The notes under the pieces: generated by a model
Seen by the model: only the letters and a program-made list of their open reading frames with translations
Databases searched by the model: none
What the model was told of the DNA's origin: nothing
Shown here: positions 7,692 through 54,827 of the stretch, piece by piece
How the letters are laid out: the number at the start of each line of letters is the position of its first letter
How positions within the stretch are numbered: position 1 is the stretch's first letter
Origin: Eucommia ulmoides
Lineage: Eukaryota; Streptophyta; Magnoliopsida; Garryales; Eucommiaceae
DNA: 64,000 bases
Reading direction: 5' to 3'
NCBI GenBank assembly: GCA_016647705.1
Contig: CM028338.1
Span: 21,783,577 to 21,847,576, forward strand
Position numbers and translations under genes: made by a program

Positions 7692-7968
7692 GATGGGCAA
7701 TCTATGCACCGTCTACCTCTGTTTACAGGTAATAACTATGCTTTTTGGAAGAAGAGGATGATTGTATTTATTCAAGCCACTAATTATGAGGCATGGTTGG
7801 TTATTTAAGATGGTACATACATTTCTAAAGATAATAGAGTAATTAAGAAGAAGGAACAACCGAGTTCCTGTGATAAATGAAAACTGTCTATTAACTCTCA
7901 AGCAATTAATCTTTTGCTTTGTTCCTTAGATGGCAATGAGTACAGTAGAGTTTCAGATTGTGGATTTG
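7692..7968 (+). pseudogene. copia gag fossil, first part
   Basis: Plus-strand reading gives LFTGNNYAFWKKRM, the usual beginning of plant copia gag (F-x-G-x-N-Y-x-x-W), followed by a stretch ending near 'LLCSLDGNEYSRVS', typical of the UBN2/gag domain. The gag domain resumes at 13679, right after the nested element. It is broken. Gag would form the cytoplasmic virus-like particle in an active relative. Confidence 0.75.
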
Positions 7969-9851
7969 TGGTAGGGCGTAAAATACTCCGCTACTTACAC
8001 CCTCAAGTATACGAGGTCTAAGTGTTAGTATAGTGTGATCGTTAAGATCGGGTTATCGTATCCACAGGAATTGGTGTCGTTATTATCGAATACCGCGTTT
8101 GTCGTGACCTAACTTTATCTAGGCGAAAACAAATGTATTTAATTAATTAAACTAATACTAATATAACATAAATTAACTACACTAATATGCTAATATGTTT
8201 TAGGGTCAAGAATTTCCTAGGGATTAATGTGTTTACAAATACGTGTTCGATATCGATTTACTCACGTTTACGGCGTTCGACCTATTTGACAATCTCGGTA
8301 CGTAAACTCCACCGCCACCTCTCCCGAGTGTAAGACGGGAGAATACATGACTTCGAGTTAAAGGAGAAGTCTCCCTCAATGTCTTAATGACCCTAGGTCA
8401 CGTGAGTCTCGCCTAGCATCATTGATTGCACACAGTCCAACTCCCTTTCGGGTTATTGGATCGTCGCGTTGTATTTACCCTATCGACAATCTCTGTTCGT
8501 AAACTCCCTTGCCACCTTTCCCAAGTGTAAGAAGGGGGATATAATGTGACTTCTTATCAATGAAGAAGTCCCTCTCAATGTCTTAATGACCCTAGGTCAC
8601 GTGAGTCTTGCCCCAACGTCACCGATTGTCCACGATTCAAACCCCGACCGGGTTATAGAATCGTGGTGTTTGTTTACCTTAATCTGAATCTGGGGTTTTT
8701 CAAAACCTCATATTCTCCATTTATCTAACTAATCATGATAAACAAACAATATGATAAATACAATCAAACTACGAAGAACAATCACAAACGAAACACCGAA
8801 ATCATCCAAACAAACATATTTATAAATATGCCGTTAATCCCAACTACAATCCATATTTAACACATGGTCATAACCAAATAAACCTATAAATCGAGCTAAA
8901 AATGCTCACATGATCCTATGATAAAGAAATAAGGAAAACTAATCGAAGAACTTAGCCTCGTCCGAAGATAAACTGCTAAAAACGCTCAATGATCGATTCG
9001 CCATCTTCTCCACTTCGGGATGTGATCTCCACCTCTAAAACTCATAAATATACCCTTAGATATAGGCTAAGGGGCTCAAAAATGCTAGAGAGGCTGGAGA
9101 AGGGGGAGGAGGGGGTTATTTATAGGCAAAAGATCTCAAAATATCTAATAAATATCAAGGTTGTGCTGCTGTATTTTCGCCTAGGAGAAGAAAACTTCAC
9201 CTAGGAGAAGTTAGGTCGGTTAACTTTCTGTCGGAACTTCGCCTCGATGAAGGAAACTTCGCCTAGGCAAAGTTACAACAAGTTTGCAATTTTGTTTTGA
9301 CTGTAACTTCTTCATCCGAACTTCGATTGAGGTGATTTAAAGACCTATGGAAATATAAGAAAAATATATACAACTTCCATGTTTTGAGTGTTTCCAAAAT
9401 AATATTGAATCATAGTCCAAAATAGCCTTGAAGTTACAACACCTTTAGCAGCTTTGCAGGTTTGGTGATTGTCTAGGCGAAGAAGTAGGCAGTGGACTTG
9501 GAAATGTTTCTACTGGGGTTTCCACCTAGGCGGAGGAATTTACTGCCTAGGCAGTGGGCTACCAGTAGCCTTTTGTCATTCTCAGCATCTTCACTGCCTA
9601 GGTGGAGGTCTGTACGCCTAGGTGGTGGGCTTCCTTCATATTTTTGCCTCCTTACTTGTTTATCCACCGTAATTTCGACTCGCCTTCGGTTCGATCTCAT
9701 CGTTTTCGCTCCAGTTTCCTATCTTTTTGCTCCATACACCTAATTTATACAAAAAGTATGAAAACTAATTAAAACATAATAAAATACTATATAAACGCTT
9801 GAAAACCAACTTAATTCGGTTTGGAAATACGTAGGTAGATCACACCTATCA
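7969..9851 (-). repeat. 3' LTR of the non-autonomous Asp-LTR element
   Basis: On the minus strand it begins TGATAGGTGTGATCTACC and ends CGCCCTACCA. It carries several near-palindromes with CCTAGG cores, including a perfect ACTGCCTAGGCAGT at 9542-9555, and two copies of the ACACTCGGGAGAGG-type motif near 8325-8345 and 8512-8530. Confidence 0.88.
9116..9126 (-). promoter_or_regulatory. TATA-like box in the 3' LTR
   Basis: CCTATAAATAA on the minus strand, about 730 bp into the LTR and downstream (in LTR sense) of the palindrome array. The equivalent position in the other LTR (12945-12954, CCTATAAATA) and in the solo LTR at 42788-42797 is conserved, which supports it as the LTR core promoter. 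Confidence 0.55.
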
Positions 9852-9864
9852 AATACCCCCAAAC
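9852..9864 (-). other. Polypurine tract
   Basis: GTTTGGGGGTATT on the minus strand sits directly before the 3' LTR start (TGATAGG). This is where plus-strand DNA synthesis is primed in LTR elements. Confidence 0.75.
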
Positions 9865-11768
9865 TTGAAATTTGGTTAGTCCTCGAGCCAAACACACACA
9901 CTAAAAGGAAAAAAAAAAAACCAACAAATTGAATTAAATAACAAACAACCTAAAAACAATCTAAATATAACAACATGCGAGTTTTGACTTCTTCTAAGGG
10001 CCTATTTATTTTTACCTCAACAACCGCCAATTATTTCGAGTTCAGGTAGTAACTCACAGCATGTAATGTTCTAGAATTTTGACATGCAATAATGGTGAAT
10101 ACTATTCTAGATCCTGTAAACGTGTTCGTGTGAGACTCAATAATATGGTTATACAACGATCAGATTGGATTATCCCTCAACGAAATTTATGAGTTAAGGA
10201 TTACCATAAGATGAATTGGGGTCCACTCTCCACTAATGTAGGTTTAGTAGTTCATGAAGATCATTAGGACTTGGTTCGGTTTTGGTATATTTGGCCAAGG
10301 GTAATTTGGAATGGAAAACGGGTTACGTTGTTAACTTAACGTTACCCAAGGCTCAACGCTTGGCACATTCACTCTCGAATCCCCATAGAAAGATTGGAAA
10401 CAATCTTGAACATGCAATTAAAATCGACGTACTCACTTGTCAAAAGAAATGGAAATAAAAACCGTATTTACATTTGACTATTTTTTTTTCCATCCAACGA
10501 ACACACCCCAAACTTATTTGAATGTTACAATTGATGGGGTGTGTGAAATCCAAATGAAAAATGACAAGCGAGTACTCAAATACCGAACCAATTAGAAGTT
10601 CGCCCTAAACCCAACCACTCACATCAAGTAGCATACATGAATGCTAACTTGATTCACTCAAACGTGCCTTTAAATTCAACAATTTAGGTTTGGAAAAAGA
10701 TCCACTGGACATGGTATTAGTTTATGTGTTCAATATTGAAATGGCATTTAGGCTTCGACAGGGTAACGAGGGATAAACATATTACAAGGTAGGCTTAAAA
10801 AGGCTCAAGCGACAAAACGAATGCCTAAATCACGTCTCCTGAACTACCTCGCCTAGGATTTCGCTCCAAGCTTCCCCTTAATCAAGTTCTAGAATCCTTA
10901 AATGTGTCATGAATTTGGCTAATCAATAATCATCCTCAAATCAATTGAATAACTATACATTGAGTCTATGTGCTCGTGCAAATTAGGATCTACAATAATT
11001 TTTAGCCAAAAGCATTGTCAAGCACACTGAATCACACATGCATGGGTATTACCCTTGACCTCGAAAACAACCAGGGGTAATTTTCATCATCGGGTGACGG
11101 CCCAGATGAACACAAAACTCGACATGAAAACAACACAAAAACATAAACACATCCTAACCTAAACACACATGCAATACGAAAAAACAATAACACATAAACT
11201 AACAATACTACATACTACACATCACCGCCAAACTCAAAGTGGACAGTGTCCTCAACGAACCCAGTCATCATTCTTCAACATGTGGAATTAAAGCATACTG
11301 ATGAAAGGTGTTTAGAACCCTTACCTGGGAGGCGAGAGGATCTCGCCTCCGATTTAAGTCAGATGTGACAGATTTAACTTATTTGACCCTGGGTTGCCTC
11401 TCAAGAAGTGCGTGATTTAATGTCCTCGGCCCAATATTTTCAGAACACCCTCAAGATTGGTGAGGTTTTGCTTTGTTCGACTCGATCTCCTCAACCAAAT
11501 GCCTCACCAGCTTATGTGCTTGGCCAAGCAACATAAAACGATTTGGAATCCCGTCGAAAGGGATGCATTAACACCCGACGATCTAACATCGGCAAGTACC
11601 CTACATAAGAAACAAAAACAAAACTACACACAAAAATTATATACAAAAAATTGCCTAAAGTAAAATTAAGTCATTTACACACAATATGGATAATAACAAC
11701 AAATCAATGCCCGACAATCGTTACCAAAAACTTAGTAGCTATCGCCAAGAACTGAATTCACCTAACAA
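9865..11768 (-). other. Non-coding interior of the Asp-LTR element
   Basis: No ORF of note. Two blocks are shared with the half element at 55030-56504. One is the 'accttacctgggaggcgag…ctgggttgcctc' block (11320-11405 versus 55365-55445), a leader-like sequence common in non-autonomous and Athila-type plant elements. The other is the 'ttacccttgacctcgaaaacaa…catcatcgggt' block (11048-11098 versus 55034-55088). Conservation of these non-coding blocks suggests packaging or leader functions (inference). Confidence 0.65.
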
Positions 11769-11770
11769 CC

Positions 11771-11790
11771 AATCCCCGGCAACGGTGCCA
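11771..11790 (-). other. Primer-binding site, tRNA-Asp type
   Basis: The plus strand reads AATCCCCGGCAACGGTGCCA, the 3' end of plant tRNA-Asp (…TCCCCGGCAACGGCGCCA) with one difference. On the minus strand it is the primer site six bases inside the 5' LTR. Athila- and Tat-type elements are known to use this tRNA. Confidence 0.85.
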
Positions 11791-11796
11791 AAAACT

Positions 11797-13673
11797 TGGT
11801 AGGGCGTAAAAAACGCCGCTACTTACACTCGCAAGTATATGAGATCTAAATTTTAGTATAGTGTGATCGTTAAGATCGGGTTATCGTATCCACAGGGATT
11901 GGTGTCGTTACTATCGAATACAGCCTTTGTCGTGACCTAACTTTATCTAGGCGAAAACAAATGTGTTTAATTAATTAAACTAATACTAATATAACCTAAA
12001 TTAACTACACTAATATGCTAATATGTTTTAGGGTAAAAAATTACCTAGGGATTAACGTGTTTACAAATACGTGTTCGATCTCGATTTACTCACGTTTAAG
12101 GTGTTCGACCTATTTGACAATTTCGGTACGTAAACTCCACTACCACCTCTCCCGAGTGTAAGACGGGGGAATACATGACTTCGAGTCAATGGATAAGTCC
12201 CCCTCAATGTCTTAACGACCCTAGATCACGTGAGTCTCGCCCAACGTCATTGATTGCACACAATCCAACTCCCTCTCGGGTTATTGGATCGTCGCGTTGT
12301 ATTTACCCTATCGACAATCTCCGTTCGTACACTCCCTCGCCACCTCTCTCGAGTGTAATATGGGGGATATAATGCGACTTCATGTCAATGAAGAAGTCCC
12401 CCTCAATGTCTTAACGATCCTAGGTCACGTGAGTCTTACCCCAACGTCACCGATTGTCCACGATTCAAACCCCGACCGGGTTATAGAATCGTGGTGTTTG
12501 TTTACCTTAATCCAAATCCGGGGTTTGTCAAAACCCCGTATTCTCCATTTATCTAACTAAGCATGATAAACAAACAATACGATAAATACAATCAAACTAC
12601 GAAGAACAATCACAAACAAAACACCGAAATCATCCAAACAAACATATTTATAAATATACAATTAATCCCTACTACAATCCATATTTAACTCATGGTCATA
12701 ACCATATGAACCTATAAATCGAGCTAAACATGATCACATGATCCTAAGATAAAGAAATAAGGAAAAACAATCTAAGAACTTAGCCTCGTTTGAAGATAAA
12801 CCGCTAAGAACGCTCAACGATCGATTCTCCGTCTTCTCCACTTTGGGATGTGAGATCCACCTCTAAAACTCCTAAATATATCCTTAGATATAGCCTAAGG
12901 GGCTCAAAATTGCAAGAGAGGCTGGAGAAGAGGGAGGAGAGAGGTATTTATAGGTAAAAGATCTCAAAATATCTAATAAATATCAAGGTTGTGCTTCTGG
13001 ATTTTTTCCTAGGTGACTTCGCCTAGGCGAAGTTAGGTCGGTTAACTTTCTGGCGGAACATCACCTCGGTGAAGGAAACTTCGCCTAGGAGAAGTTACTG
13101 TAGGTTTGCAATTTTTCTTTGATTGTAACTTATTCATCTAAACTACGATTGGGGTGATTCAAAAACCTATGGAAATATAAGAAAAATATATACAAATTCT
13201 ATGTTTTGAGTGTTTCCAAAATCGTATTTTATCATAGTCCAAAATAGCTTTCAAGTTACAGCACCTGTACCGGCTTTGCTGGTTTGGTGACCGCCTAGGT
13301 GAAGAAGTAGGCAGTGGACTTGGAAATGTTTCTACTGGGGTTTCCACCTAGGCGGAGGAATTTCCTGCCTAGGCGGTGGGCTATCAGCAGCCTTTTGTTA
13401 TTCTTAGCATCTTCACTGCCTAGGCGGAGGTCTGGACGCCTAGGCGGTGGGCTTCCTTCATATTTTTGTCTCCTTGCTTGTTTATCCATCGTAACTTCGA
13501 CTCGCCTTCGGTTCGATCTTATCGTTTTTGCTCCAGTTTCCTATCTTTTTGCTCCACACACTTGATTTATACAAAAAATATGAAAACTAATTAAAACATA
13601 ATAAAATACTATATAAACGCTCGAAAACCGACTTAATTCGGTTTGGAAATATGTAGGTAGATCACACCTATCA
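11797..13673 (-). repeat. 5' LTR of the non-autonomous Asp-LTR element
   Basis: Same start, end and internal order as 7969-9851. CCTAGG-core palindromes lie at about 13290-13460, a TATA-like CCTATAAATA at 12945-12954, and the paired ACACTCGAGAGAGG/ACACTCGGGAGAGG motifs near 12350 and 12155. This is the LTR that would drive transcription of the element. Confidence 0.88.
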
Positions 13674-13678
13674 ATTTT

Positions 13679-16045
13679 CAAAAGAAATGTAGGATACATT
13701 GAAAACCACATATGAGGGAACTGATCATCTAGCAAAGCTAGTCTTAACTTTCAAAATAATGTCAAGCAAAAGAGATTTCAAAAATTCTTTCCCGAAACTA
13801 AGAAAGTTGTGAAATGTTTTAACTATAACATCGTGGGGTATACCTTTAGCAAATTTTTTTTTAAGAAACCTAAATGTAAGTAGGTATGGGTTCCTAAAGG
13901 AACAAAAGAGGATCCAACTAACAAAATTGGACCCACGTAGAATGGGTACGATCTAGGAATTTGAGGTGCTGCGTAAAAGTTATCATGTAAACATTTGTAA
14001 GCAAGGACGAATTGTTTCTAAGAAAAGGTTGTTCTCAGCACGTGATAGGAGATAAACGTTGAAATTATGTATTTTACACCTAAAGACGAACGTCTTGTGA
14101 GTTATGAAGAATATGCCAAAGAACGTCACAACAAAATGGTATTGTGAAGAAGAAAAATAGAACACTACAAGAAATGGCCAGAACAATTCTGAACGAGAAT
14201 CGTCTTCCTAAATACTTATTGGAAAAAGTCAATAATCAAAACCAAGGAGGTGATACGACAAATGACCCACAGAATGAGGAACCAAAAGGAGAGGAGACTT
14301 ACTTTACCACGTGCTATAAAGACAATACCGGGACATTCGATAAAAGAAATTATTGGTAATTTCAAGAAAGGTGTAAGTACAAGATCCTATCTTAGGGATA
14401 TATTTAATGTTGTTTTTCTATCTCAAATTGATCCTAAAAATGTGAATAAGGCGTCAACTGATAAATCTCCACAATACAAGAAGAATTAGTTCAATTTGAA
14501 CATAATAAGGTATGGTCTCTAGTTTCTAGACCTGACTTTCATCTTGTAATTGGTACTAAATGGGTTTATCGTAATAAAACAGATGAAACAGGTATGGTAA
14601 TTAGAAATAAAAGAAGATTAGTAGCACAGGTCTATAATCAAGAAGAGAGAATTGATTATGATTAGACGTATGCTCTTGTAGCTAGACTAAAAGCTACTAA
14701 AATATTACTAACCTTTGCTTGTTCACATAATTTTAAATTATATTAAATGGATGTCAAGAGTGCATTCTTGAATGACTTTCTATCTGAAAAGTTTATGTTG
14801 AACAACCACGAGGATTTGAGAGTGATAAACTTCCCGATCATGTGTTTAAACTTCAGAAGGCTTTGTATGGACTCAAACAAGCTATGTGAGCTTGGTAAGA
14901 GAGACTTAGCTGATATTTGATTGAAAATAGTTTTAGATGGCATCTTTGTGATATTACTCTATTTAATAAGCAGAATGATTCTAATATCATGTTTGTATAG
15001 ATATATGTTGATGATATTATATTCGGATGATATTACTCTATTTATCGAGCAAAATGATTCTGATATCTTATTAGTACAGATATATGTCAATGATATTGTA
15101 TTCAGATCTACTAATGAGGGTTTTTGTCAAGAGTTTGACAAGATTATGCACGTTGAGTTTGAAATGAGTATGATGGGAGTGTTAATCGTCTTTCTTGGGT
15201 TGCAAATCAAGCAAACCAAAGAATGAATTTTCATTAATAAAGTCAAGTCCAGAAAAGAGTTAGTGAAAAAGTATGGTTTGGATGGCGCTAATGAGTACAA
15301 AACTCCTATGGAAACAACTACGATAGAAAATGATGATACGGGGAAAAACGTAAATGAGAAAATGTATCGAGGTATGATTGGTAGCTTGTTGTATCTTACT
15401 TCTAGTAGACCTGACATAGTATTTAGTGCATGCTTGTGTGTTATATTTCAGTCTTGTCCTAAAGAATCGCATTTAACTATAGTCAAGTGAATCTTTCGAT
15501 ATTTGAAAAGGACAAGTGACCTAGGATTATGGTATCCTAGGGAGAGTGACTTTAAGTTAACTAGTTACTCTGACGTTGATTTTGTCAATTGCAAAGTTGA
15601 GCGTAAAAGCACAAGAGGGTCATGTCACTTTTTATGACTTGCTTTAGTTTTTTTGTCTAGTAAGAAACAAAACTCAATGGCCTTATCTACAACTAAGGCT
15701 GAGTATTTTATAGATGGTAATTGTTGCACTCAAATTCTATATATTAAGGAACAATTATATGATTTTAGACTATGTACAGCAAAAGTCCCTATTTATTTTG
15801 ATAATAAAAGTGCTATATGCTTAAGTAAGAAACCGATATAGCACTCACAAACTAATTACATAAAGATTAGACATTATTTTATTCGTGATCACATTCAGAA
15901 AAAGGATGTAACTATTAAATATGTATATACCTCCGATCAGCTTGCCGATATTTTAACCAAACCTCTAGCAGAAGATCAATTCATGAAAATTATTCGAGGT
16001 TTAGGTATGGTTAGGTATAATGATGTATGCCTAGAGTGATATTTT
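13679..16045 (+). pseudogene. copia gag-pol fossil, continuation
   Basis: The plus strand gives, in order: the rest of gag and its basic linker (13690-13960); a protease scrap near 14010-14050; the end of the integrase core (KNRTLQEMARTI at 14150-14190); RT from about 14400 (SQIDPKN, LVIGTKWVYRNK, then QIYVNDIVF, the position of the catalytic YVDD box, near 15080); the RT tail (YRGMIGSLLYLTSSRPDI near 15365-15420); and RNase H (SSKKQNSMALSTTKAEY near 15655-15705, ending in DQLADILTKPLAEDQF near 15935-15980). Domain order and words fit a plant Ty1/copia polyprotein of the Tork/SIRE kind; I do not resolve which. It is broken in many places. Confidence 0.8.
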
Positions 16046-18453: not shown

Positions 18454-21400
18454 GGTGGGGTCGGTGTAGCAAGAGGAATAGAAGCCTCTAGGTCAGCCAT
18501 GAATTCTATTATACCAAGAGTATCCGTACGAGTTTGAGTTGGGGAAATCGCAGTTAGGTGATCTAATAATAAGGTGCAATGTCTAATGATCTCCCAAAAC
18601 AAATCCTCACCGTTCCGGCGATACGGGTCGCACTTCTGTCTGAGACCACTCTTTTAATTGTAATAGCAGTAAGCTCAGAGGCTAGAACCACCTTCTTATC
18701 ACTGTGACTCGCCCAGAAGGTCAGCACCCTGTGGCCTAGTAATGTACCACCTACCAGGTGTGCTATGTCCATCTAAGGGCTAATTGATAGACTTAAAAAC
18801 CACTGAAGGTACTCATCTTCATAAATCAGGAGAGTAACTAGTACATCAGAGGGAATCGCTTGACCAAGTATGTCAAGATCTGTAATATCCGTATGATGTC
18901 CAAGCTGCACCTCCAAAGTATTAAGAGGTTGGAATAACCTACCAGAGATTTGAGTTGTAGCTCTCTCGCCCATGAACAACTCCCAAGAAGATAGACCTCT
19001 GACGATACGATGTTGAGTTGATAGTGTCCTCTTAGGAAGCATCTCCGCCTAATGAGTGTCGCGGCGATATGGTTGCAAGATAATATCTCTAAGCACCGAG
19101 CACTCTAGCTAATTGCGAGCCACCATGTGATCAAGGGAAGAAGAACCTTCCTCTAGGACGGAGCAATGCCACTTCGCCCTGTGGGGGAAGTAGTAATCTA
19201 CAGTAGAATAGGGGTAATGATGAGTGTTTTATTTACTAACAAATAAAGTATTTTTAGATTCAAATATTTGTAAGTTTTCAAGTATTTTGTTAGTTTAATA
19301 TATTTTTGTGTTGTTTTATAGGAATCATAAATAAATGAGAGAAAATATGGAAATTTAACCGGAAAGTCCAGGATTTGGTCAGAACATTGGGGCTACAGCG
19401 GGAATTCAGGGGCTACAATGTGAAAAAAATGGAGAAATTAAGACGTCCTAGTAGGAAGTTGGTGCTGCAGTGCCATTTATTCAGATAGAAAAAAAGGCAG
19501 CGCATTTTGGCGTTGCAGCGTAAAACCCTCCTTTTGGTGCTACAGTGCGAGATCAATTTATGTTGTAACGTCGCTCGATGAACTTCAAGCCCATTTTTAA
19601 CTACGATTCAATCTGATTTTGGAAAAACTTAAAACATGAACATTGTATATTTTTTCTTATCTTCCAAATAATTTGGAATCACCTCAATCAAAGTTCGAAA
19701 GAGAAAGTTATGGCCAAATTTCAAAAAGGTGCATACTACAGTGGGAAAGACTTATACTGTAGAGCTAATTCATAGACCTAAACTCATTTTGGAGCCTATA
19801 TGTACCACATTAGGCCTCAAATCCTGGGGGTGGCAATTTTTGGAGAGAAAACACCCCATGGTGTGACAATTTGAGACTGAATTGGAGAGAAAAACATCGT
19901 TGGAGACATAAAACCACAAGAAAGGGAGATTGGAGTTGAAGTTTATTGAAGATTTGAAGCTCATCTCCACAAAAATAGTTTTCTCTTCTTTTCTCTCACT
20001 CCAATCTTTATTGAATTTTGTATTTGTGATATTGTTTTGAACATATTTGTATTTATGAATTTCTTGAAAAGATTAGTTATGGATTTCACTATGTTGAGTT
20101 AAAATTCATATCTAGGGCGTGATGTAGTCTCGTTGAACCATGTTTTGAATATTTGGTTAATTGTTAGTTTTAATTCCATTCTATGCCTCTCTATGTTTAA
20201 TGCATTTGATTTATGTGGCCAATGAGTTAGATGATTTTAGGTTGTGAATTTTATGCTCGAGAGAGATTGAGTTCGTGTCTAGAATTGAGAGTGCATAATT
20301 TAGGTTGTTGTGAGTCCGAGAGGAGATCAATACCTAGGTAATCGAGTTGAAAATTTAGGATCTTGTGAGACCGGGAGGTGATCAAGTGCTAGATTTATCA
20401 ACTAGGATTTCTATTCAATTGTGTTTGTCTTTTAATGTTTCCAAGTTATGCTTCCATATGATATCTTGGTTTATTTGAGAACTTGGAATTTGACACTCAG
20501 GAGAGGTAATTTCGGGTTCGGACTTAGGTTAAGCACAACGTAAGTTTTAATCGATCAAGGGATATTTAAAGCTTGGGTAATCTATAAGGTCGGGGTGTAA
20601 CAAATGCTCTCCCCTAAATACGAGATATGGATATCAGTATTAAACTGTTTGCATATTCTCTCACTTGACACTCGGTATAGGTAGTGAGGCAGCATGAGTA
20701 ACTTTGATTATTGAATGAATGAAATTGGCTAATAATTACTTAATAGGATGACATAGGAATAACGAGATGAAATCAAGTCCCTAGAACATTTGTGTATAGA
20801 AAGTCCATATTTTATTTTACTTTTGATTTTATATTTGTTTTAATTTTATTTTATTTTTATAAACCTAAAAATTGGTTGCCTAAATAAAGTTGGGTTACGA
20901 TAATCGCAGTACTTAGTAACGATTTAAACCAATCCCTATGGATATGACACTCTACTCAACCTATAGTATTAAAACTTGACCCATATACTTGCGGTGTAGC
21001 AAAATCAATCGCTATCAGGCGACATGAGAAAATTTACTTATATGTCCAATACTGTAAGAGAAACAAAAGACAACTAAGAAATATAATATAAGAATATAAA
21101 GAAGAAATAAAAAAAAAATTAAATGAACTCACGAGTAGAAATTGCCAGAAACCTATGACGCCACCAACACGAGTAGATACGTAGAGAACATCCCTGCTAA
21201 GAAGGTTGTGAATGTGAAGCTCCCCTAGTCGAGCTTTACCAAGCCATCCAGCTCGCTCAGAGTCCCCATGAACTGGAGAGGTATGGTGGAACACGAAGAA
21301 TCCATGAAAGTCCCATCGAAGAATATGAGCAGTAGAATACAAGAGCGTTGGCCCCTCAACTCTGGGTCCTCAGAAGCTGGAAGTGTGAAGATCGACTTAG

Positions 21401-26014: not shown

Positions 26015-27311
26015 TGATAGGTGAAATTTATCTATCTATTTCCAAACTGACTTTGGTAGTTTTCGAGTATTCTTGTAATATTTTGATTCATTTTTATTTC
26101 TTTTTATTTATTTTTGTTCAAAGCAAGGGTTAAGAGCAAAAATGGTCGAAAACGAGGAAATTGGTGGAAAAACAACAAAATGTTAAAGCAACAATTTCAC
26201 CGCTATAGTGGTCTGCCCAACGCTGCAGCGGTAAAGCAACAGAGAGTTCCCTAAGTTTCTGATCGCTCACCACTGTAGTGGTGAAAGAGAAGAATTCCCA
26301 CTGACATGCTTACCACTGCAGCGGTGAAACCCATCGCTGCAACAATCAATGGCCAGTTGTTTTAGATATTTTTTAGATATTTTATTTTTGTTTCTTTTTG
26401 TTCCTAATCCATTTCCACTTTTGTAAGAACATTTATGGAGTGTTTTTTATTGTTCTAAAAATCCCTCAACCAACCAAAGATGAGGAACACAATTGGAGAA
26501 GAGGAAACAAGATCAGAGCGGTTTTTACGGACGCCACCTTCAGATAACGGCTATTTTCCTTTGTATATATTGTTTATTGTGGAATATATAGTTATGGCCA
26601 AGAGCTAGACACTGATTATCTATGGGATTGATGTCGTTTACTAATATACGTTGTTTGAGTAAATCATGTTTCATTAATGGTTGTTTATCTTTGTTCGATT
26701 GTGTTTACCAATCTTTTACCTCCATAATATGTTAGTTATGATATTCTGGTTGATTTGAGAATATGGCGTTTGACACTCAGGAGAGGTAACCCTGAATTCG
26801 GATTAGGGTTTAAAAATAACGTGACGATCTAATGACCCAGGAGGGTATTAGAAAGTGTGCAATCCATGAGGTTGGGGCAAGACTCATGTGACCAAGTGTC
26901 GTATAAATGCTCGAGGGGGACTTCGGTGTTGACGCAAAATTTCATATTCATTTACTTTACACTCGGGAGAGGTAGTGAGTAAGTTTTCGATACCTAGATT
27001 GTCGATAGATTTGAATACCATTAATGTAAAGTAGATTGGATCAAACATGTATAAGTAAACGAAGTTAATCCTTAGATAATCTATTCCCATATAATATATT
27101 TAGTATTATAGTTTAATTAATTGTTAATTTAGTATATTATTTATAAAAACAAAAAACCCAATTTTTAGTGCCTAAATAAAGTTCGGTTATGATAATCGTG
27201 GTAATTAACGACAATTTAATCCAGGGATACAACAACCCTTCTCATTTACTATTCTATAAAACTTGACCCGTACACTTGCGGTGAAAGTAGCGATGTAATA
27301 TTCCGCTACCA
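26015..27311 (+). mobile_element. Solo Asp-LTR (copy B) with perfect target duplication
   Basis: Starts TGATAGGTGAAATTTATC and ends TATTCCGCTACCA, flanked by TGAAT on both sides (26010-26014 and 27312-27316). It carries near-palindromes such as CACCACTGTAGTGGTG (26268-26283) and paired ACACTC(A/G)GGAGAGGTA motifs at 26773 and 26959. A solo LTR arises by recombination between the two LTRs of an element. The perfect 5 bp flank suggests it is one of the younger copies. Confidence 0.88.
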
Positions 27312-35613: not shown

Positions 35614-36971
35614 TGATGAGTGGTTTATTTACCAACAAATCAAGTACTTTTAGATTCAAATATTTGTGTATTTTCAAGTAATTTTGTTAGTTTAATGTGT
35701 TTTTGTTTTGTTTTATAGGTTTTTGAATAAATGCGTGAAAAGATGCATAGTCAGTACAAGTGTAGTAACTTCAAGGCCATTTTTTACAATAATTCAATTC
35801 GATTTTGAAAAAACGTAAAACATGGAAGTTGTATATATGTGTATCAGATTTCCATATATTTTTGAATCACCTTAATCGGAGTTTGTAAGATAAAGTTACG
35901 ATTAAAAGACTACCGCAGTAGCAGTGGCCTTCACTGCTGCAGCGGTGAAGTGTTAGTGAACCTACTAACTTCCCACCGCTATAACGGTGGGAAGTCAGCT
36001 GGCAAAGATATTTCTTGATATTTTGGACCCCTACTTGATAACCGCTTTTCCCCAACACCTAGGCACGTTTTTGGGGTGTTCTTGAGAGCTCCAAGATTAT
36101 ACCAAGGAGAGAGAACACAATTCCAAGAAGAGGGAAGAAGATCGGAGTGGTTTTAGTGAATACAAGGTTTCTCTCTTTATTTCTTGAACCCTTTTTGGTA
36201 TTTGATCATGTTTAGTTTATTTTTTGTTGTATATTTAGTTATAGCCAGGTATAGATAAACATATATTGTTTAGGGAGCGATTTGTTTATAAAAACGTTAT
36301 TTGTTTGATCTTTGTGTCGTTATCAGTTTTTCATTCATATTCGATTGTGTTTATCGTTTTATTACAATCATTATATGCTTGTTATGGTATTGTGGTTGGT
36401 TTGAGAATACGGGATTTGACACTCGGGAAAGGTAACCCTGAATTCGGACTAGGGTTTAAACACAACGCGACAATCTAATGACCCGGGAGGGTATTAGAAA
36501 GTGTGCAATCCACGAGGTTGGGGCGAGACTCATGTAACCAAGTTTCATATAGACGCTAAAAAGGGACTTTGGCGTTGATACCAAGTCGCATATTCATTTA
36601 GTTTACACTCGGGGAGAGGTAGTGAGTGAGTTTTTGATACCTAGATTGTCGGATAGATGTGAATGTCGTTAATGTAAACTAGATTGAATCGAACATGATT
36701 AAGTGAACAAAGTTAATCCCTAGATAATATTTTCCCATTAACGTCATAGTAATGTTATAGTTTAATTAATTAATTTAATTTAGTTTAGTTTATAATTATT
36801 ATAAAAACCCTAAATTTCCTTCGCCTAGATAAAGTTAGGTTATGACAATCACGGTACTTAGCGACGATGAAATTGAATCCCTGTGGATACGATAACCCTT
36901 ACTCTTCCAACTATACTAAAACTTGACCCGTACACTTGCGGTAAAAGTAGCGACGTAATATTCCGCTACCA
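35614..36971 (+). mobile_element. Solo Asp-LTR (copy C)
   Basis: Starts TGATGAGTGGTTTATTTACC and ends TATTCCGCTACCA. Flanks GTTAC (35609-35613) and GCTAC (36972-36976) match at 4 of 5. It contains CACTGCTGCAGCGGTG at 35932-35947 and CCCACCGCTATAACGGTGGG near 35976-35995, plus ACACTCGGGA(A/G)AGGTA motifs at 36419 and 36605. Confidence 0.85.
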
Positions 36972-39031: not shown

Positions 39032-40260
39032 TTAACCACAGGAAGACTTTCTAGTATAGTAAGGGACAATTCTAGGCTTAAATGTCACATAGAACTCTCC
39101 CATTTCTACTGCCCATTTTATAAGACGACTTGAAGCCTCTGGTTTGTGCATCACTACCCTGAGTGGGTATGAAGTTAGCATGTTGATTGTATGCGCTTGG
39201 AAGTAAGGTCTCAACTTCCGAGCTTCCGTTATAAGGGCCAAAGCAAGTTTCTCTAGCTCAGTATAGCGAGTTTCTACTGGGACCAACGATTTTCTTATGT
39301 AAAATACTGGCCTCTGGCCTCCTGTGCATTCCTTCACCAGCGTTGCACTAACTGTAACTGTAGTAAGCGCTAAGTATAGGTACAACTCATCCCCAGGATC
39401 AACCTTGACTAAAATTTCGACAGAGCCCAAGTAATCCTTGATGGAATGCAAAGCGCGTTTATTGCTTTGGTCCCAGTGAAAATTCTTACTTTTTCTCAAA
39501 ATTTTGAAACAAAATGAGCATATCTATCTGTAAAATTGGGGATGAACTTGTTTAGCGTAGTCAATCTTCTAGTTAGCACCTGGACTTTACGTATTTTTAT
39601 GGGGGGGCTTCATATTTCAAAGAACTTCTATTTACCTAGAATCAACCATGATACCTGTCTTGTTCACTACAAACCCTAAAAACTTGCTCAACGTGGCATC
39701 GAACATACACTTCTCAAGATTCAGCTTCATATTGTACTTCCGTAATATTACGAAAGCTTCCTCCAGATACTCCAGATGATCGTTCCTCTTAGAACTCTTG
39801 AATAACATATTATCTATATAAACCTCCATAGTTACTTTTTTTTTTGGAATATGCAATTCACTAGCTGTTGATACGTCACCCCTGTGTTTCTCAAATCGAA
39901 AGGTATTACTCTATAGTAGAATGTACCTCTAGGAGTGATGAAAGTTGTTGCTTTCTCATCCTAGTAATTCATCCAGATCTGATTATACCCAGAGTAAGCA
40001 TCCATCATGGATAATAAATAATGCCCAGCTGTTGCGTCTACCATCTGGTCTATCCTAGGCATTGGATAACAATTCTTGGGGGTATGCTTGGTTAAGGTCA
40101 GTAAAGGTCACATATATTGTCCATTTCCTATTCTTCTTCTTGACCAGCACTAGATTGGCTAGTCATTTTTGATAAATCACCTATCTTATATGCCATATTC
40201 TAAGTAGCCTCTGCAATTCAGATTCTATCACCTATTTCTTCTCTAGGCTGAACATCCTTC
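39032..40260 (-). pseudogene. Tat-type Ty3/gypsy RT and RNase H fossil
   Basis: Minus strand. RNase H at about 39050-39480 has 'LYLYLALTTVTVSATLVKE', RPVFYIRKSL and ETRYTELEKLALAL, then LRPYFQAHTI, as in gypsy RNase H of the Tat lineage. Upstream, 39632-39856 holds the RT catalytic region with VYIDNMLFKS at the YxDD position, then KYNMKLNLEKC and FLGFVV, the standard RT thumb words. Degenerate RT N-terminal sequence continues to about 40260. It would copy the RNA to DNA in an active element. The fossil has many breaks. Confidence 0.8.
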
Positions 40261-41784: not shown

Positions 41785-43214
41785 TGGTAGCGAGTAAATT
41801 ATGTAGCTACTTTCACCGTAAGTGTATAGGTCAAGTTTTAGTAGAGTGGGAAGGGTAAGGGTTGTTGTATCCATAGGGATTGGTGTATATTATCGTTGAG
41901 TACCGTAATTGTCATAACCTAACTTTATTTAGGCGATAAAAAATATAGTTTTTGTTAATAAAATAATATACTAAACTAATTAACTAATTAAACTAATTAA
42001 TCTAACATACTAATATTACTAATATTGACGTTAATGGGAGTGAATTGCATAGGGATTAACTTTGTCCACTTAAACATGTTCGTTTCAATTTAGTTTACAT
42101 TAATAACATTCATCATATCCGACAATCTCGATATCGAAATCTCATTCACTACCTCTCCCGAGTGTAAAGTGAATGAATATGTGACTTTGCGTTAATGCTA
42201 AAGTCCCCCTCGAGTGTCTATACAACACTTGGTCACATGAGTCTTGCCCCAATTTCACGAATTGCACACTTTCTAACGCCCTCCTGGGTCATTAGATCGT
42301 TGCGTTGTGTTTAAACCCTAATCTGAATCTGGGGTTACCTCTCCTGAGTGTCAAACCTCGTATTCTCAAAATCAAACCTAATACCATAATGAGCATATTA
42401 AAATTGTAATAAAATGGTAAACACAATCGGATAAACATGAACAACCATTAATGAAACATAGATTTATTCAAACAATTTTTTCATACATGAATCGCTCCCT
42501 AGACAATATATGTTTAGCTATACATGGCCATAACCAAATACACAACAATAAACAAGATAAACATATACAAAACTATCAACCAAACTAAGAATAAAAGAGA
42601 TAAATGAGGAGACTAGCCGTTATCCGAAGAATCTACGCTAAAACCGCTCTGATAACGTTTTCTCTTCTTTGCGTTGTGATCTTCTCTTGGTTGATAGGCC
42701 TTGGATCTCTCAAGACACTCCTGAAAATGTCTACTTTTTTTTTTTTTTTTTTTTTTTGGGGGGGGGGGGGGGGGGGAGAAGAGACAATATTTATAGGATC
42801 CAAAATATCAACAAAATATCCTAAAATATCTAAACTGTCTGGCGCCTGACCGCTGCAGTGGTGGAGAGGTCGGTAGGTTTCTGGCGAGTGACCGCTACAA
42901 CGGTGGAAAGTTCAGCAACTCTCTGCATTTTGATCGTTGCAGTGCTGCTTTCACCAATACAGTGGTAGAGAATTCAGCAACTCTCTGTATTTTCATCGCT
43001 GCAACGGTGGTTGCAGGTTCTGAATATTTGACTTTTTGCTTTTTTTCTCCACTGTTCTTCCACCGACTTGCTCATTTATGGATATTTTTTTGTCCCTTTT
43101 CACCCCAAATACCTTATTTATAACAAAACAAATAAAAACATATTAAAACCCTATAAAAATACTCAAAAACTACCAAAATCGTCTTGGGTTATAGTAGATA
43201 AATAACACCTATCA
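41785..43214 (-). mobile_element. Solo Asp-LTR (copy F)
   Basis: Minus strand: TGATAGGTGTTATTTATC to TACTCGCTACCA. Flanks AGCTC (41780-41784) and AGATT (43215-43219); the paralogous empty site at 645-655 confirms the insertion. A TATA-like CCTATAAATA lies at 42788-42797. The palindromic CTGCAG-core motif ACCGCTGCAGTGGT is at 42849-42862, with further copies to 43020. Paired (C)CTCTCC(C/T)GAGTGT motifs lie at about 42150 and 42340. An unusual T23G19 homopolymer pair sits at 42735-42776. Confidence 0.88.
42735..42776. repeat. T23 followed directly by G19
   Basis: Two adjoining homopolymers inside solo LTR F, just downstream of the LTR TATA-like box in LTR sense. The run lengths may be inexact in the assembly. 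Confidence 0.8.
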
Positions 43215-43730: not shown

Positions 43731-45154
43731 TGGTAGGTGTAAAATACCTATCTACTTCTAAACCAAATTTGATAGTTTTCGAGTGTATTATTAATATTTA
43801 ATTGCGTTTTAGTTTGTTTTTAGTTAAATCAGGTGTAGGGACGTAAACAAGTGACAAACGAGTGAAATGGTGGGAAAACGATAAAGAAACAATGAAGAAG
43901 CAAGGTTTCAAGAACAACAGACCCACCACCATAGTGGTAAGTCCATCGCCACGGCAGTGAGAATGTTGGGAGTGCTGAAAATAAACAAGTCCCACCGTCT
44001 AGGCAGTGAAAATGCAGAGAGTTTGGAGCCTGTTCCAACGCCTAAGCTGTGATTCCATAGCCTAGGCGATGAAAGATCAAAGAGCAGCCAACATACCCAC
44101 TGCCTAGGTGGTCAACTTTGCACATAATTAATATCTTTTTAGATATTTTCATATATTTTTGGATCCTTATACCTATAAAACTTGTTCTCCCACTTCTAAT
44201 GAAGCTCTCTTGGACGTCTCTAACCCTTAGGACTTGGTCCTTGGCAAATCTTAAAGAGCTCAAAGAGGATATTCATCATCCAGAGAAGAGGAAACACTAG
44301 CGGATCGATCTTTGAGGACATTGGATCACTCCACTTTAAGATTTAATCTTTCTCTCTTTGTTTATCTCTTTGTAATTTAATGTTTTATTGTAAATGATGA
44401 TGAATCCGTCTTGGTTTAATGTTTCAATGGCCAAGATCATGTTAGATTAGATAAATATTAGCTAGGGATCGATATAGTTGTGTAAATACTAGTTTGATTT
44501 AATATATGTTTCTTTAAAGGTTGTTTGTCTAAAATCGATTGTGGTTATCACTCTATTACGATCTTAGTATACTTGTTAAGGTATTAGGGTTGTATTTGAG
44601 AATACGGGGTTTGACACTCGGGAGAGGTAACCCCGGATACGGACTAGGGTAAACACAACGCGACGTTCTAATAACCCGGGAGGGTGTTAGAAGGTGTGTA
44701 ATCCATAAGGTTGGGTCAAGACTTACATGACTATGTGTGCAAAAAGATGTTCGAGGGGGACTTCGGCGTCAACGGGGAGTCATGTATTCATTCACTAAAC
44801 ACTCGGGAGAGAGAGTGAATGAGTTTAAGATACCGAGATTGTTGGATAGGATAAAACACCATTATTGTTAACTAAACGAAATCAAACATGTATTAAGTAA
44901 ATGAAATCAATCCCTAAGTAATCAACTTAGTTAGGATTAACCCACTAATTGTAGTTTAATTTAGTTTTAATTCGTTTAATTTTAAATAATTCTTTAATCG
45001 TCGGGATAATATAAGACTATACAAATTGCGGTATTCAATTATTCACACCGTCCCTGTGAAACGATATCCGATCTTAAAGATCCACTATATTAAAACTTGA
45101 CATCGTATAATTGCGAGTAGTCAATACGCAAGCGTGTAAAAACCATATCATACA
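43731..45154 (+). mobile_element. Solo Asp-LTR (copy D)
   Basis: Starts TGGTAGGTGTAAAATACC and ends AAACCATATCATACA. Flanks TCTGG (43726-43730) and CCTGG (45155-45159) match at 4 of 5, and the paralogue at 1150-1165 is the empty site. Mixed palindrome cores: ACCACCATAGTGGT (43925-43938) and CCTAGGC motifs (43995-44112). A TATA-like CCTATAAAAC lies at 44172-44181. Paired ACACTCGGGAGAG motifs lie at 44614 and 44799. Confidence 0.85.
44172..44181 (+). promoter_or_regulatory. TATA-like box of solo LTR D
   Basis: CCTATAAAAC about 440 bp into the LTR, directly after the palindrome array and before CT-rich leader ('cttgttctcccacttctaatg'). Confidence 0.5.
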
Positions 45155-46160: not shown

Positions 46161-49055
46161 TGCGTACCCCGAATTTTTTGAAAGCGAAACAAGTAAAGAA
46201 TGGGAAAAAAAAAAAAACAAATTTTCATTCATCCTTCTTGAAATCCTCAAAATCTATTTATTTTCGAAAATGAGTTTTCAGGGGCTTTTCTAGTCGCTGG
46301 TTTTGAAAATGTTCTTTGGGCTAGGATTTATGTGAGAAACGGAATCGTCACCTATCATGGGGGTTAAATGGTGTGCTAGGTCACTAGGATTTTAGAAATT
46401 CATTTTTATTTCAAATGGCTTAAGTTTTGACTCAAAAAGTATTGGTCTTTTACCATAGATTTCTTTAATTTTAGTGGTCAATTATTCTCAGGGAAGGTAT
46501 TAAGAACCCCAAGACACACGTCCAAAGATGGTACCTCAGTCTAAATAGATGTTCACGTTTAAACAAAGTCCAAGTAACTTACTTTGGTTTTGTTTAACAA
46601 AATAATTCTCATGTTTATGTTTTTGTCTTTTTTCTGCATTTTTATGTAAGGAAATCAAATAAAAGTTAACCATCTATCAGCAGCAATAGATAAAATATAT
46701 TGAAATAAAAATATTTTTTGTATTTTTTACGATCGAACCTGTAATGGTTGCCTACATATCCTGGTTTTCACAGGAAATTAGATCGAAACGTAGTTCATCA
46801 ATTCAAGATGAACTGATTTTTATTTAGACAAGTAACCAAACTCGTACGTGGGTTGCCTACATATCTCAGGTAGCTGAGAATCAGGTCAGCACGTAGTTCA
46901 TCTAGTGATGACTGTGTTTTGTTTTTTATTTATTTTTATGAAATAAGTACATGAATAGCACCGATGATATGTGGATATTCACTTTTAATTTTGTCCAGAA
47001 TACTCAAACTGAACTCACTTGCGTAGGCAAGTTTAGTGTTTACATTTAGTTCAAAACGAAAAGAAAATACATAGTATATGTATCAGTCCTACTCGTAACT
47101 AAGAAAAGCGAAAACATTTTTGAAAAAGGTGCACACATATCCCCGAAGGAGTAAAGGACCTCCCTTTATTCCAAATTTTTAGCCACAAGGGTGGGTCTCG
47201 ACGAAGTAGTATATATATATGGTGCCAGTCCATGAGCCAGATAACTTAGTGCTAGGCTATGATCTAGACTATTTCAGAAACGTAAAGTCAGTTGTTAGTA
47301 GTTAGTGGTTAGCAGTCAGTTAATTAGAGGTTGGATTTGAGTTTTTCTAATTCGGTTTCATGTGTTTGTGAGAGAATCAAAGATGTTATACACAACTCAT
47401 GATATGATTGATGTTGTTTTTCATGTTCTTCATATGTTCTTCATGTTATTGACATATGTTCCGATATTTTTGACATATTTTGATTTTTTAGATGTTTTCG
47501 ACGTTTTTTGGCTTGATTCTTTGATAACTTTTTGAGAACTTCCACCAAGATCCTCAAGAAATTATTTTGGAAGCTATTTCGACAAAATTTAGAGGTGTTT
47601 TTGGAATAGAAGGTTTGAGAACTCCCTAGATCCGAGAGAGGAATCTGAGACTAGAGAGAGAAAGTCTTGGATAAAGCCCTCCAAATTGTGAAAAAAGACT
47701 GCCTATTTATAGGCTCGGGTGCGCATTGGCCAATGTGCAGGGTATCCCAGCCTGCTCCTTAGGGGTTGTTTGGTTTAGGTGTGACCCCTTGCTCCTTAGG
47801 GGTTGTTTGGTCTAGGGGTGACCCTTTGATGCCTTGTAGTTTGATGGTTTTAGACGAATTTGAAAGATTCACTAAGATTTCCTAAGATTTGGTAATGATT
47901 ACCAAATCTCAAAATATTTCAAGTAATCATTGGCAATCATTACTCATGATTGGTAATGGTTGGATCTCATTACTCATGATTGGTAATGATTGGCTTGCAC
48001 ATGAGGCATTTAATGCATGATATAACACTTTTCAGTTCAGTTTGTTTGCTAAGTACTAGTTACTTAAACTAGTTCAGTTAGCTTTCATTAAATTATTTGG
48101 AGGTGCAATATATTTAGTCTCCATGTGTTATTTGGTATTTAATACTTGATCATGGCACTTGATTTTATGGGCATTGAATGCTCTTTAATGGGATGGAATT
48201 AGTTCGGTTAGTCTTGCAACCGTTTAGTTACATTTCAAGTATCATGGTTCCTTTGAGATATTTTGCTCAAAATATCTAGATACCTTGTATGTAGTCTCCG
48301 AAGGTCATTACAAGCATTAAATTCTTGATGGGAGGTTAATTTTATGGCTTATTAATGGCTTGTCCTGATAGCTACTTTTTAAGTAACTTGGTTTCTTCCT
48401 TAGATATTTTTGTAGGAAATATCTTGGAAATATCTTAGAATTTAATGCTCATTTAATGAGTTATTAAATGCATGATGAGGACCTTGATGTGATAGGCTTT
48501 GAAGGCTAATCATGATGACTTCTGTTTGGTTGGTTTCGAACCGAGTCCTACGCTTTAGTTACTTTGGGTAACTTAGACTTGTCATAGCAATTTATTTGGT
48601 TTGATCAAGGACTTTAGCTTGTTTTATGGAGGAATAATGATTTGAATGAAAAAATAGAAAAGTATTTTTGGTGTCAGGATGACGAAACTGGTGATAGTAA
48701 ATATTTTTGGGGTTAAAACGGGTAACTAAGGTAATTGGTGAAATATCCTTAAATTAAAGGGTGGTAACTAATTTTTATTCATATTAAAGGTGATTTCATG
48801 AAAATCAACCTTTAATAGTGTCATTTTAGTCCCCCTTAACTTTTTGAGATTTCGAGGTTGACTTGAAACTTTTACTTATACCGAATTTAGTCAAATTTGA
48901 CAGTTTTGTGTTTTCTTGTATTGTTTTATTGTTTTTTGTAGTATCCAATGTAATCTAAGGTAGAAATTTTTCCCTTTAAATATCCATTTAAAGTTTATCT
49001 AAATTTGTACTTTCGATCCGATACTAATTGAGCGGGACTAAATGCGGTGTCAACA
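46161..49055 (-). mobile_element. Tat/Ogre-type 5' Arg-LTR, about 2.9 kb
   Basis: Minus strand: starts TGTTGACACCGCATTTAGTC at 49055 and ends GGGGTACGCA at 46161, followed by the primer site. Features in LTR sense: AT-rich U3 with repeated 'ggtaatgattgg'-type words (47890-47990), TATA-like CCTATAAATAG (47703-47713), TA microsatellite (47207-47222), tandem GAACTACG modules (46745-46900) and the conserved 3' block (46270-46560). Little of its interior remains to the left, where plus-oriented gag sequence is found instead. Confidence 0.85.
47703..47713 (-). promoter_or_regulatory. TATA-like box of the Arg-LTR
   Basis: CCTATAAATAG on the minus strand, after 'gcacattggccaatgcgcacccgagc' (which contains a CCAAT-like box), and followed by a leader ending in 'gactttctctctct'. 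A typical plant Pol II core promoter layout. Confidence 0.6.
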
Positions 49056-54045: not shown

Positions 54046-54787
54046 CTCCTTGACGCACCCAGATATGTTTTAAATCAGAGAAAATAGAGCAAGGGTAGAA
54101 GAGAAAAACAAAGTTTCATTCATCTCTCTCGAAATCCTCAGGATATGTTCATTTTCGAAAATGAGTTTTCAGGGGTTTTTCTAGGCTTCGATTTTGAAAA
54201 CGTTCTTTGGGTCAATATTTATGTTAGAAAATGAGTCGTCAACTAGTATGGGGTTAAATAGTGTGCTAGGTCACAAAGATTTAAGAAAAATATTTTTTAT
54301 TTTGAAATATCCCTAGTTTTGATTCGAAAACTGTTGCTCTTTTACCAGAGATTTCTTTAAGTTTGGAGGTTGATTATACTCAGGGAATATGTTAAGCACC
54401 CCAGACACCTGTCTGAAGACAGTACCTCAGTCATGTTTAAACAAAGTCCAAGAAATTTCCTTTGGTTTTGTTTTACAAAATAATTCCCATTTTTATATTT
54501 TTTTTATTTTTATGTATTTTTCTATAAGGAGAGCAAGTAAAAGTTAACTATCTATCAGCAGCAACAGGTAAAGTATATGAAACAAAAATATTTTTCTTGT
54601 ATTTTTTATGACCGAAATTGTAAAGACTGCCTACGTATCTTGGTTTTCACAGGGAATCAGATCGAAACGTAGTTCATCTATTCAGGATGATTTGATTTTT
54701 ATTTAGACAAGTGACAGAACCCTTACGTGTGTTGCCTACGTCTCAAGTAGTTGAAAATTAGGTCAACATGTAGTTAATCCTTTAGAT

Positions 54788-54792
<5 letters not shown>

Positions 54793-54823
<31 letters not shown>
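54793..54823. repeat. (TA)15 microsatellite in the LTR
   Basis: Pure TA run between 'agatgactt' and 'gaaacaaggatatac' of the Arg-LTR; at the same place the copy at 46915 has only a T-rich stretch. Confidence 0.9.

Positions 54824-54827
<4 letters not shown>

Follow-up and report, generated by a model that had tools for sequence, protein, structure and literature searches.

What keeps a short palindrome self-complementary while the bases at its center are replaced? The question is raised by a 64,000-nucleotide window of the Eucommia ulmoides genome (GCA_016647705.1, contig CM028338.1, positions 21,783,577 to 21,847,576), which has a GC content of 35.2% and contains many decayed repeats. BLAST self-comparison of the window revealed one family of long terminal repeats (LTRs) in nine copies: A to D, F to H, and the pair E3 and E5, the two LTRs of a short element at 7969-13673 (element E). 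An earlier note on this DNA had described arrays of near-palindromes in the unique 3′ (U3) region of these LTRs and had proposed that twofold symmetry is retained through a switch of the core. The motifs were indeed found where it had placed them, clustered early in the LTR, and their core switches as a palindrome; the arms are common to the sites, but most arm changes are independent of each other. The reading that we favor, and to which we give slightly less than even weight, is that the arrays serve as operators to which a dimeric DNA-binding factor binds, its preferred core having changed from one subfamily to another.

Palindrome density was compared with that of dinucleotide shuffles. 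In a blind count, restricted to 12-bp near-palindromes with at most one mismatched pair and at least six G or C, LTR positions 150 to 480 of eight LTRs (E3, a near-copy of E5, was excluded here as in most counts) held 17 near-palindromes against 3.1 in shuffled sequence, where the maximum was 9 and none of 1000 shuffles reached 17. For single LTRs, the observed count was equaled or exceeded in 11 (E3), 3 (E5), 1 (B), 4 (C), and 32 (D) of 1000 shuffles, in a borderline 68 for F, and in 280, 384, and 1000 for G, H, and A, respectively. The non-LTR background had a mean of 0.28 near-palindromes per 330-bp chunk (n = 147). A second, core-blind rule sought the arms CAYYRY-N4-RYRRTG with at most one mismatch and ignored the core. 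Across the nine LTRs it returned 26 sites, of which 25 fall within positions 150 to 480. Shuffled U3 sequences held a total of 0.68 (maximum of 4 in 300 shuffles); the 50,113 bases of non-LTR DNA contained five such sites, none with a self-complementary core. The excess over shuffled U3 sequence by which the earlier note had proposed to judge its claim is present by both counts. Its statement that every LTR has the array applies to most copies only: LTR A has no site under the core-blind arm rule, carries a degenerate series, and passes neither test, G and H pass the arm test only and are not above chance in the blind one, and F is borderline. The sites listed per LTR number three to six in B, C, D, F, G, and H, eight in E5, and nine in E3 (both counted with the site at offset 377), and A has seven degenerate ones. 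Every site in the window departs from the idealized form, CACCGC-N4-GCGGTG, in at least one of the 12 arm positions; the best is one transition away.

Both core types, CTAG in E, F, and H and TGCA or TATA in B, C, D, and G, are self-complementary well above permutation. A self-complementary core was present in 16 of the 25 core-blind sites, compared with 5.2 when the core halves were permuted (0 of 10,000 permutations reached the observed number). Covariation was then scored in 22 core-blind sites, leaving out E3 and the overlapping hit G355. Watson-Crick pairs made up 35 of the 44 core pairs against 18.4 after permutation (0/5000), although the kinship of sites within an LTR and of LTRs within the family means that such permutation figures overstate independence; when a single site was drawn at random from each LTR, the core gave a median permutation p of 0.013 with seven LTRs. 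The arms behaved differently. Arm pairs 3 to 6 were Watson-Crick in 58 of 88 cases against 55.6 (58 was reached in 1423 of 5000 shuffles), the six arm pairs together in 90/132 versus 89.1, and only pair 3/14 gave a weak hint by itself (16 versus 12.8; 401/5000). Since the sites had been picked by purine/pyrimidine class, the arm test is sensitive mainly to transitions. Retaining E3 led to the same outcome (core, 39/48 versus 19.6; arms, 64/96 versus 60.5). Core pairs covary and arm pairs do not, which argues that the symmetry of the core was kept, whereas that of the arms was not maintained pair by pair. The retention of twofold symmetry through the core switch is supported, but the paired arm substitutions that the earlier note had expected were not found; the arms change mostly independently, which is the outcome that it had named as a refutation. 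Between E5 and E3, seven sites differed at 12 of 84 arm, 0 of 28 core, and 36 of 321 spacer positions. The 14-mer at 9542, quoted by that note as an example, is a perfect palindrome there but an imperfect one in the sister LTR (CACTGCCTAGGCAGTA versus CACCGCCTAGGCAGGA), so that one of the two LTRs must have changed after insertion.

The switch can be followed at matching sites. B and F each have five sites at nearly equal spacing (20, 50, 43, and 21 bp versus 20, 49, 43, and 20 bp), and their successive cores are TATA, TGCA, TGTA, TGCA, and TGCA in B versus CATA, CACG, CTAG, CTAA, and CTAG in F. Over this stretch, the two LTRs are identical at 43 of 60 arm positions (72%), 31 of 64 spacer positions (48%), and 5 of 20 core positions (25%), with 69/100 in the upstream stretch. 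B-F, which we stress here, is one of six cross-element pairs compared, all selected by matching spacing. Identity in E5-B was 24/36 in arms, 22/38 in spacers, and 0/12 in cores, and in H-B it was 19/24, 15/34, and 2/8, so that the three cross-class pairs together share 7 of 40 core positions and have arms above spacers. Within the CTAG class, core identity is higher (15/28, including E5-F, which is taken up below): H-F shared 17/24 arm, 18/28 spacer, and 5/8 core positions, and E5-H shared 16/24, 19/33, and 3/8. In the alignment, a site with a GAAAATGCAGAGAG-like flank carries CTAG at its center in E, CACG there in H and F, and TGCA there in D and B. The earlier note had also reported one copy carrying both cores, which we could not confirm for either candidate: the array at 43920-44112 has CTAG three times together with CTAA, CATA, and CACG but no TGCA, and that at 42845-43025 has TGCA twice and TGTA twice but no CTAG.

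Element E carries a second array, absent from the earlier note (13017-13094 in E5 and 9175-9272 in E3). Its arms are CTTCGC/GCGAAG-like, and its cores are CTAG plus one CGAG per LTR; if these arms are homologous to CACCGC/GCGGTG, two arm pairs have changed on both sides. LTR positions 480 to 800, where this array lies, showed a clear excess in the blind test in E3 and E5 only (5 and 2 of 1000 shuffles, respectively). A gap of about 210 bp, from the last site of array 1 (offset 377) to the first site of array 2 (587), separates the two arrays and contains a block of about 130 to 170 bp that is common to E, A, C, and G with 72 to 79% identity between elements. The block had no match in B, D, F, or H at an E value of 1e-3, and these LTRs have a single array. 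Sites flank the block on both sides in E, as does the degenerate series in A, and lie after it in C and G. Both arrays of E are mostly CTAG despite their differing arms, while at the position of array 2 the cores are AGTA, TGCA, and TATA in C and TGCA at all four sites in G. As judged from element E, the core seems to go with the element more than with the array.

Promoter placement of the arrays is likely. The earlier note had put them upstream of a TATA-like box, which fits E3, E5, D, and F, where a TATA-type string lies 59 to 73 bp beyond the center of the last listed site (at LTR offset 420 in D, which has another at 93, and at 444 in F), but not of the other LTRs. In the favored model, the arrays would regulate the LTR promoter from upstream, through repeated operators of the idealized form given above. 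A twofold-symmetric, dimeric DNA-binding protein, hypothetical and of host or element origin, would bind each operator and use the arms as half-site contacts common to the sites; it would also read the four bases of the core, because they stay self-complementary. Core preference would have shifted between TGCA/TATA and CTAG among subfamilies, with the sites of an element changing singly. Such a factor would explain the shared half-sites, the self-complementary core, and the core typical of an element. We infer the protein, its binding, an enhancer role of the arrays, the direction of the change, and any coevolution from the pattern of sites. A search of the literature on LOB-domain factors and CGG palindromes gave no relevant match, and we name no factor. 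The fuller version of this scenario, in which the preference of the factor changed, sites in two separate arrays switched in place between TGCA/TATA and CTAG with their shoulders kept, and the factor drives the family or releases it from silencing, we regard as possible but rather improbable.

Several observations speak against an operator function. Besides the independence of the arm changes and the kinship of the sites, the arms (72/84 the same) were kept no better than the spacers (285/321) after the insertion of element E. The LTRs are old, E5 and E3 being mismatched at 159 of 1877 aligned sites, and in the blind test the counts for A, G, and H (0, 1, and 1, respectively) are individually not above chance. 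The ordering seen in B-F is not repeated by every other pair; in E5-F, the heavily gapped spacers (22/27) exceed the arms (26/36), with cores at 7/12. In E, D, and H, TATA-type strings lie ahead of the array as well, and none follows closely after the array in B, C, G, and H. Finally, a tree of the LTR bodies groups E, F, and H with weak support (68/91), which would need one change only and allow a single origin of the CTAG core. A tree of the LTR heads requires two changes, its forks being open, and several matching sites changed under either tree.

The strongest competitor, to which we assign roughly one chance in five or a little better, places the function of the palindromes in RNA: the units would pair in the transcript, and a folded U3 would aid the element through stability or dimerization or would be the source of small RNAs made by the host, which has been proposed for the Sireviruses of maize. 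It draws on folding energies that also weigh against the DNA operator, since several array segments fold far better as RNA than their shuffles (z of -5.7 and -5.1 for two segments of E5, -6.0 for B, -7.1 for C, and -3.9 for G, with D intermediate at -2.4), but those of H, F, and A do not (z of -1.2, -0.8, and 0.1), the segments of F and D having omitted outer sites. Related DNA palindromes are in any case expected to fold well, and strong folds do not decide the matter. Pairing between palindromes within one element would explain the single core per element, and small RNAs are reported to be concentrated on Sirevirus palindromes (PMC10760457, PMC5311732). The strand of the transcript, however, is not the better folder: of the 11 arrays, all but A fold better as antisense than as sense RNA (mean, 6.0 kcal/mol), in a comparison that counts E3/E5 twice and in which the sense strand is richer in A and C in most arrays, itself favoring antisense. 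Nor are A·C mismatches rarer than G·T on the sense strand: they number 22 versus 16 in the core-blind set and 32 versus 21 in a curated set that was partly chosen by symmetry and in which three sites are poor (E5 669, D 276, and H 357); without these three the counts are 25 and 20. The earlier note had left the choice between a dimeric factor and an RNA hairpin open. The mismatch counts and the strand folding, neither of them decisive, tilt it toward the dimeric factor and leave the hairpin weaker.

Scarcely behind, at about one chance in five, comes an origin without any function in symmetry. Slippage and template switching during reverse transcription would have spread the arrays and made palindromes out of quasi-palindromes, and a CTAG variant would have been copied along the array. 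Sites lie in partly duplicated units in D and H, several share a GAAAATGCAGAG-like flank, and the VANC target motifs discussed below likewise accumulate through tandem repeat formation, according to part of the report on them (PMC5735166). The one-to-one layout of B and F, whose cores differ and whose spacers are poorly conserved, suggests change in place instead. For the two arrays of E to become alike by local copying, the copying would need to cross the block, and correction against a template should pair the arms as well, which do not covary.

Inherited similarity alone, with an ancestral array that had two founder cores and then decayed neutrally, so that the covariation is one old event counted repeatedly, fits the single change on the LTR-body tree, the independent arm changes, and the arms being kept no better than spacers after insertion, but we consider it improbable, given that the cores of B and F are less alike than their spacers while their arms are more alike, and that the mixed cores in H and F make replacement look site by site. 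CpG decay alone was rejected as the source of the cores. Transitions from CGCG could give TGCA, CACG, and TATA, but the same decay would produce TGTG and CACA as readily as TGCA, and neither is among the 25 cores; CTAG requires transversions. Helical phasing of the sites (resultant of 0.84 at 10.25 to 10.5 bp) was not used, since the spacings are inherited and the sites partly symmetry-chosen.

Dyad-symmetric arrays upstream of the TATA box are known from Sirevirus LTRs, for which a cis-regulatory role was suggested by the authors of the report, cited here from excerpts (PMC2829016). Those motifs lie in the upper half of the LTR, start 200 to 400 bp in, have family-specific sequences, and occur in at least eight copies per element, which are commonly >85% identical and mostly bear a CGG-CCG signature (PMC2829016, same excerpts). 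Clusters of Sirevirus motifs are further marked by bordering on predicted CpG islands. The present arrays likewise consist of dyad-symmetric motifs, except in LTR A, and occupy the upper half of the LTR, as seen from the positions of the arm-selected sites. Within the excerpted text, the OPIE-2/PREM-2 motif CACCGGACTGTCCGGTG has outer CACCG...CGGTG identical to the arms found here, and the Inga motif AGCGGTASTACCGCT contains the hexamers of the idealized TGCA form in opposite order (PMC2829016). Unlike the Sirevirus motifs, the copies described here are degenerate and, counted within single LTRs, mostly fewer; the idealized form reads CCG-N6-CGG and not CGG...CCG, and matching sites of a single LTR family have different cores. 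A palindrome, CACCGGACNNNGTCCGGTG, is described in part of a study for structured regions of maize Copia and Helitron elements, where it is tied to LTR cis-regions and seen as a possible small-RNA source (PMC10760457). It shares the outer CACCG/CGGTG arms but differs in core and length, and the small-RNA data are those of maize.

A second parallel is offered by the VANC anti-silencing target arrays of VANDAL elements, in which, as far as the cited portion of the report goes, the non-palindromic motif YAGTATTAY is bound by an element-encoded protein, C-type and T-type variants occur by subgroup, repeat units change together, and coevolution with the binding protein is proposed (PMC5735166). The likeness lies in short motifs in a noncoding array that vary by subfamily. 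Unlike VANDAL, the elements here have LTRs, two of the nine with an adjoining primer-binding site, and the binding protein is hypothetical. The arrays may be a variant of known palindromic LTR repeats, set apart by the core switch within one LTR family. No description of the array or of the core switch was found by title and abstract in the open-license literature, where CTAGGCG combined with LTR also returned nothing relevant. The similarities suggest that palindromic LTR arrays extend beyond the Ty1/copia Sireviruses into a different-looking LTR family, and host factors of a similar kind may be involved in both, given that the outer CACCG/CGGTG arms agree. If the fuller scenario given above is true, the family would preserve a natural record of operator-factor coevolution in a retrotransposon promoter, comparable to the VANC targets but with dyad operators. 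Under the operator reading, its old copies would be a fossil series of operators whose centers were rewritten at several matching positions while the half-site shoulders were kept. Such a series could serve to test the coevolution of promoters and binding factors in transposons, and core change as an escape from host silencing; CHG sites are present in the CTGCAG form and absent from the CCTAGG form.

Table 1. LTRs, palindrome arrays, and associated features in the window
Feature	Position	Strand	Description
LTR E3	7969-9851	-	3′ LTR of short element 7969-13673; termini TGATAGG...CTACCA
E3 array 2	9175-9272	-	Four sites, CTTCGC-like arms; cores CTAG (three), CGAG (one)
E3 array 1	9467-9627	-	Four CTAG sites at 9520-9627; fifth site CTTCGCCTAGACAATC, LTR offset 377
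Primer-binding site of E5	11774-11790	-	One mismatch to the presumed tRNA-Asp type pattern
LTR E5	11797-13673	-	5′ LTR of element 7969-13673, adjoining the primer-binding site
E5 array 2	13017-13094	-	CTTCTCCTAGGCGAAG, CTTCACCGAGGTGATG, CTTCGCCTAGGCGAAG; the last is a perfect palindrome
Block between arrays 1 and 2 of E5	13094-13265	-	Non-palindromic
Homologues of the block	9272-9443, 19581-19742, 35760-35906, 57675-57823		
E5 array 1	13289-13449	-	CTAG sites 13434-13449, 13414-13429, 13363-13378, 13342-13357
E5 array 1, fifth site		-	CTTCACCTAGGCGGTC, centered at LTR offset 377
LTR A	19218-20996	+	
LTR A series	19393-19762	+	Degenerate CTRCAG/CTGTAG-like, seven matches: five before the block, two at or after its end
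LTR B	26015-27311	+	
LTR B array	26198-26347	+	Cores TATA, TGCA, TGTA, TGCA, TGCA
LTR C	35614-36971	+	
LTR C array, after block	35911-35989	+	Cores AGTA, TGCA, TATA
LTR D	41785-43214	-	
LTR D array	42848-43009	-	Cores TGCA, TGTA, TGTA, TGCA
LTR F	43731 to about 45118	+	3′ end unsure
LTR F array	43924-44113	+	Six sites; cores CATA, CACG, CTAG, CTAA, CTAG, CTAG
LTR G	56505-57974	-	
LTR G array, after block	57532-57651	-	Four sites, all core TGCA
LTR H	61573-62941	-	
LTR H array	62609-62726	-	Cores CACG, CGCT, CTAG

The LTR boundaries in Table 1 were placed by eye using the self-comparison, in which E3 and E5 are 91.2% identical. Beside E5 and G, two of the nine LTRs, lies a primer-binding site that we take to be of the tRNA-Asp type, with one mismatch, and that presumably speaks against a Ty1/copia Sirevirus; the family may belong to the Ty3/gypsy class. 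The conserved LTR pattern had no match in viral contigs or in prokaryotic contigs, the latter being a weak test, and a search of positions 7900-13800 against Rfam returned no family. Element E consists of two LTRs of about 1.88 kb and an interior of about 1.9 kb with no open frame of at least 110 amino acids, and it is likely nonautonomous. The window contains nine frames of that size, the longest of 163 amino acids. Four open frames were compared with Pfam, and one, the minus-strand frame 39032-39520, matched the RNase H domain of reverse transcriptases (RT_RNaseH_2; E value of 5.4e-15) and could not be assigned to any one LTR. At 47017-47032 and 54901-54916, near-palindromes around TTGCGTAGGCAA and TTGCTTAGGCAA resemble the CCTAGG-core form, possibly by chance, and belong to another repeat (46163-47138 and 54054-55029). 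A run of 23 T occupies 42735-42757; on the sense strand of LTR D, the array is closely followed by a run of C and then a run of A.

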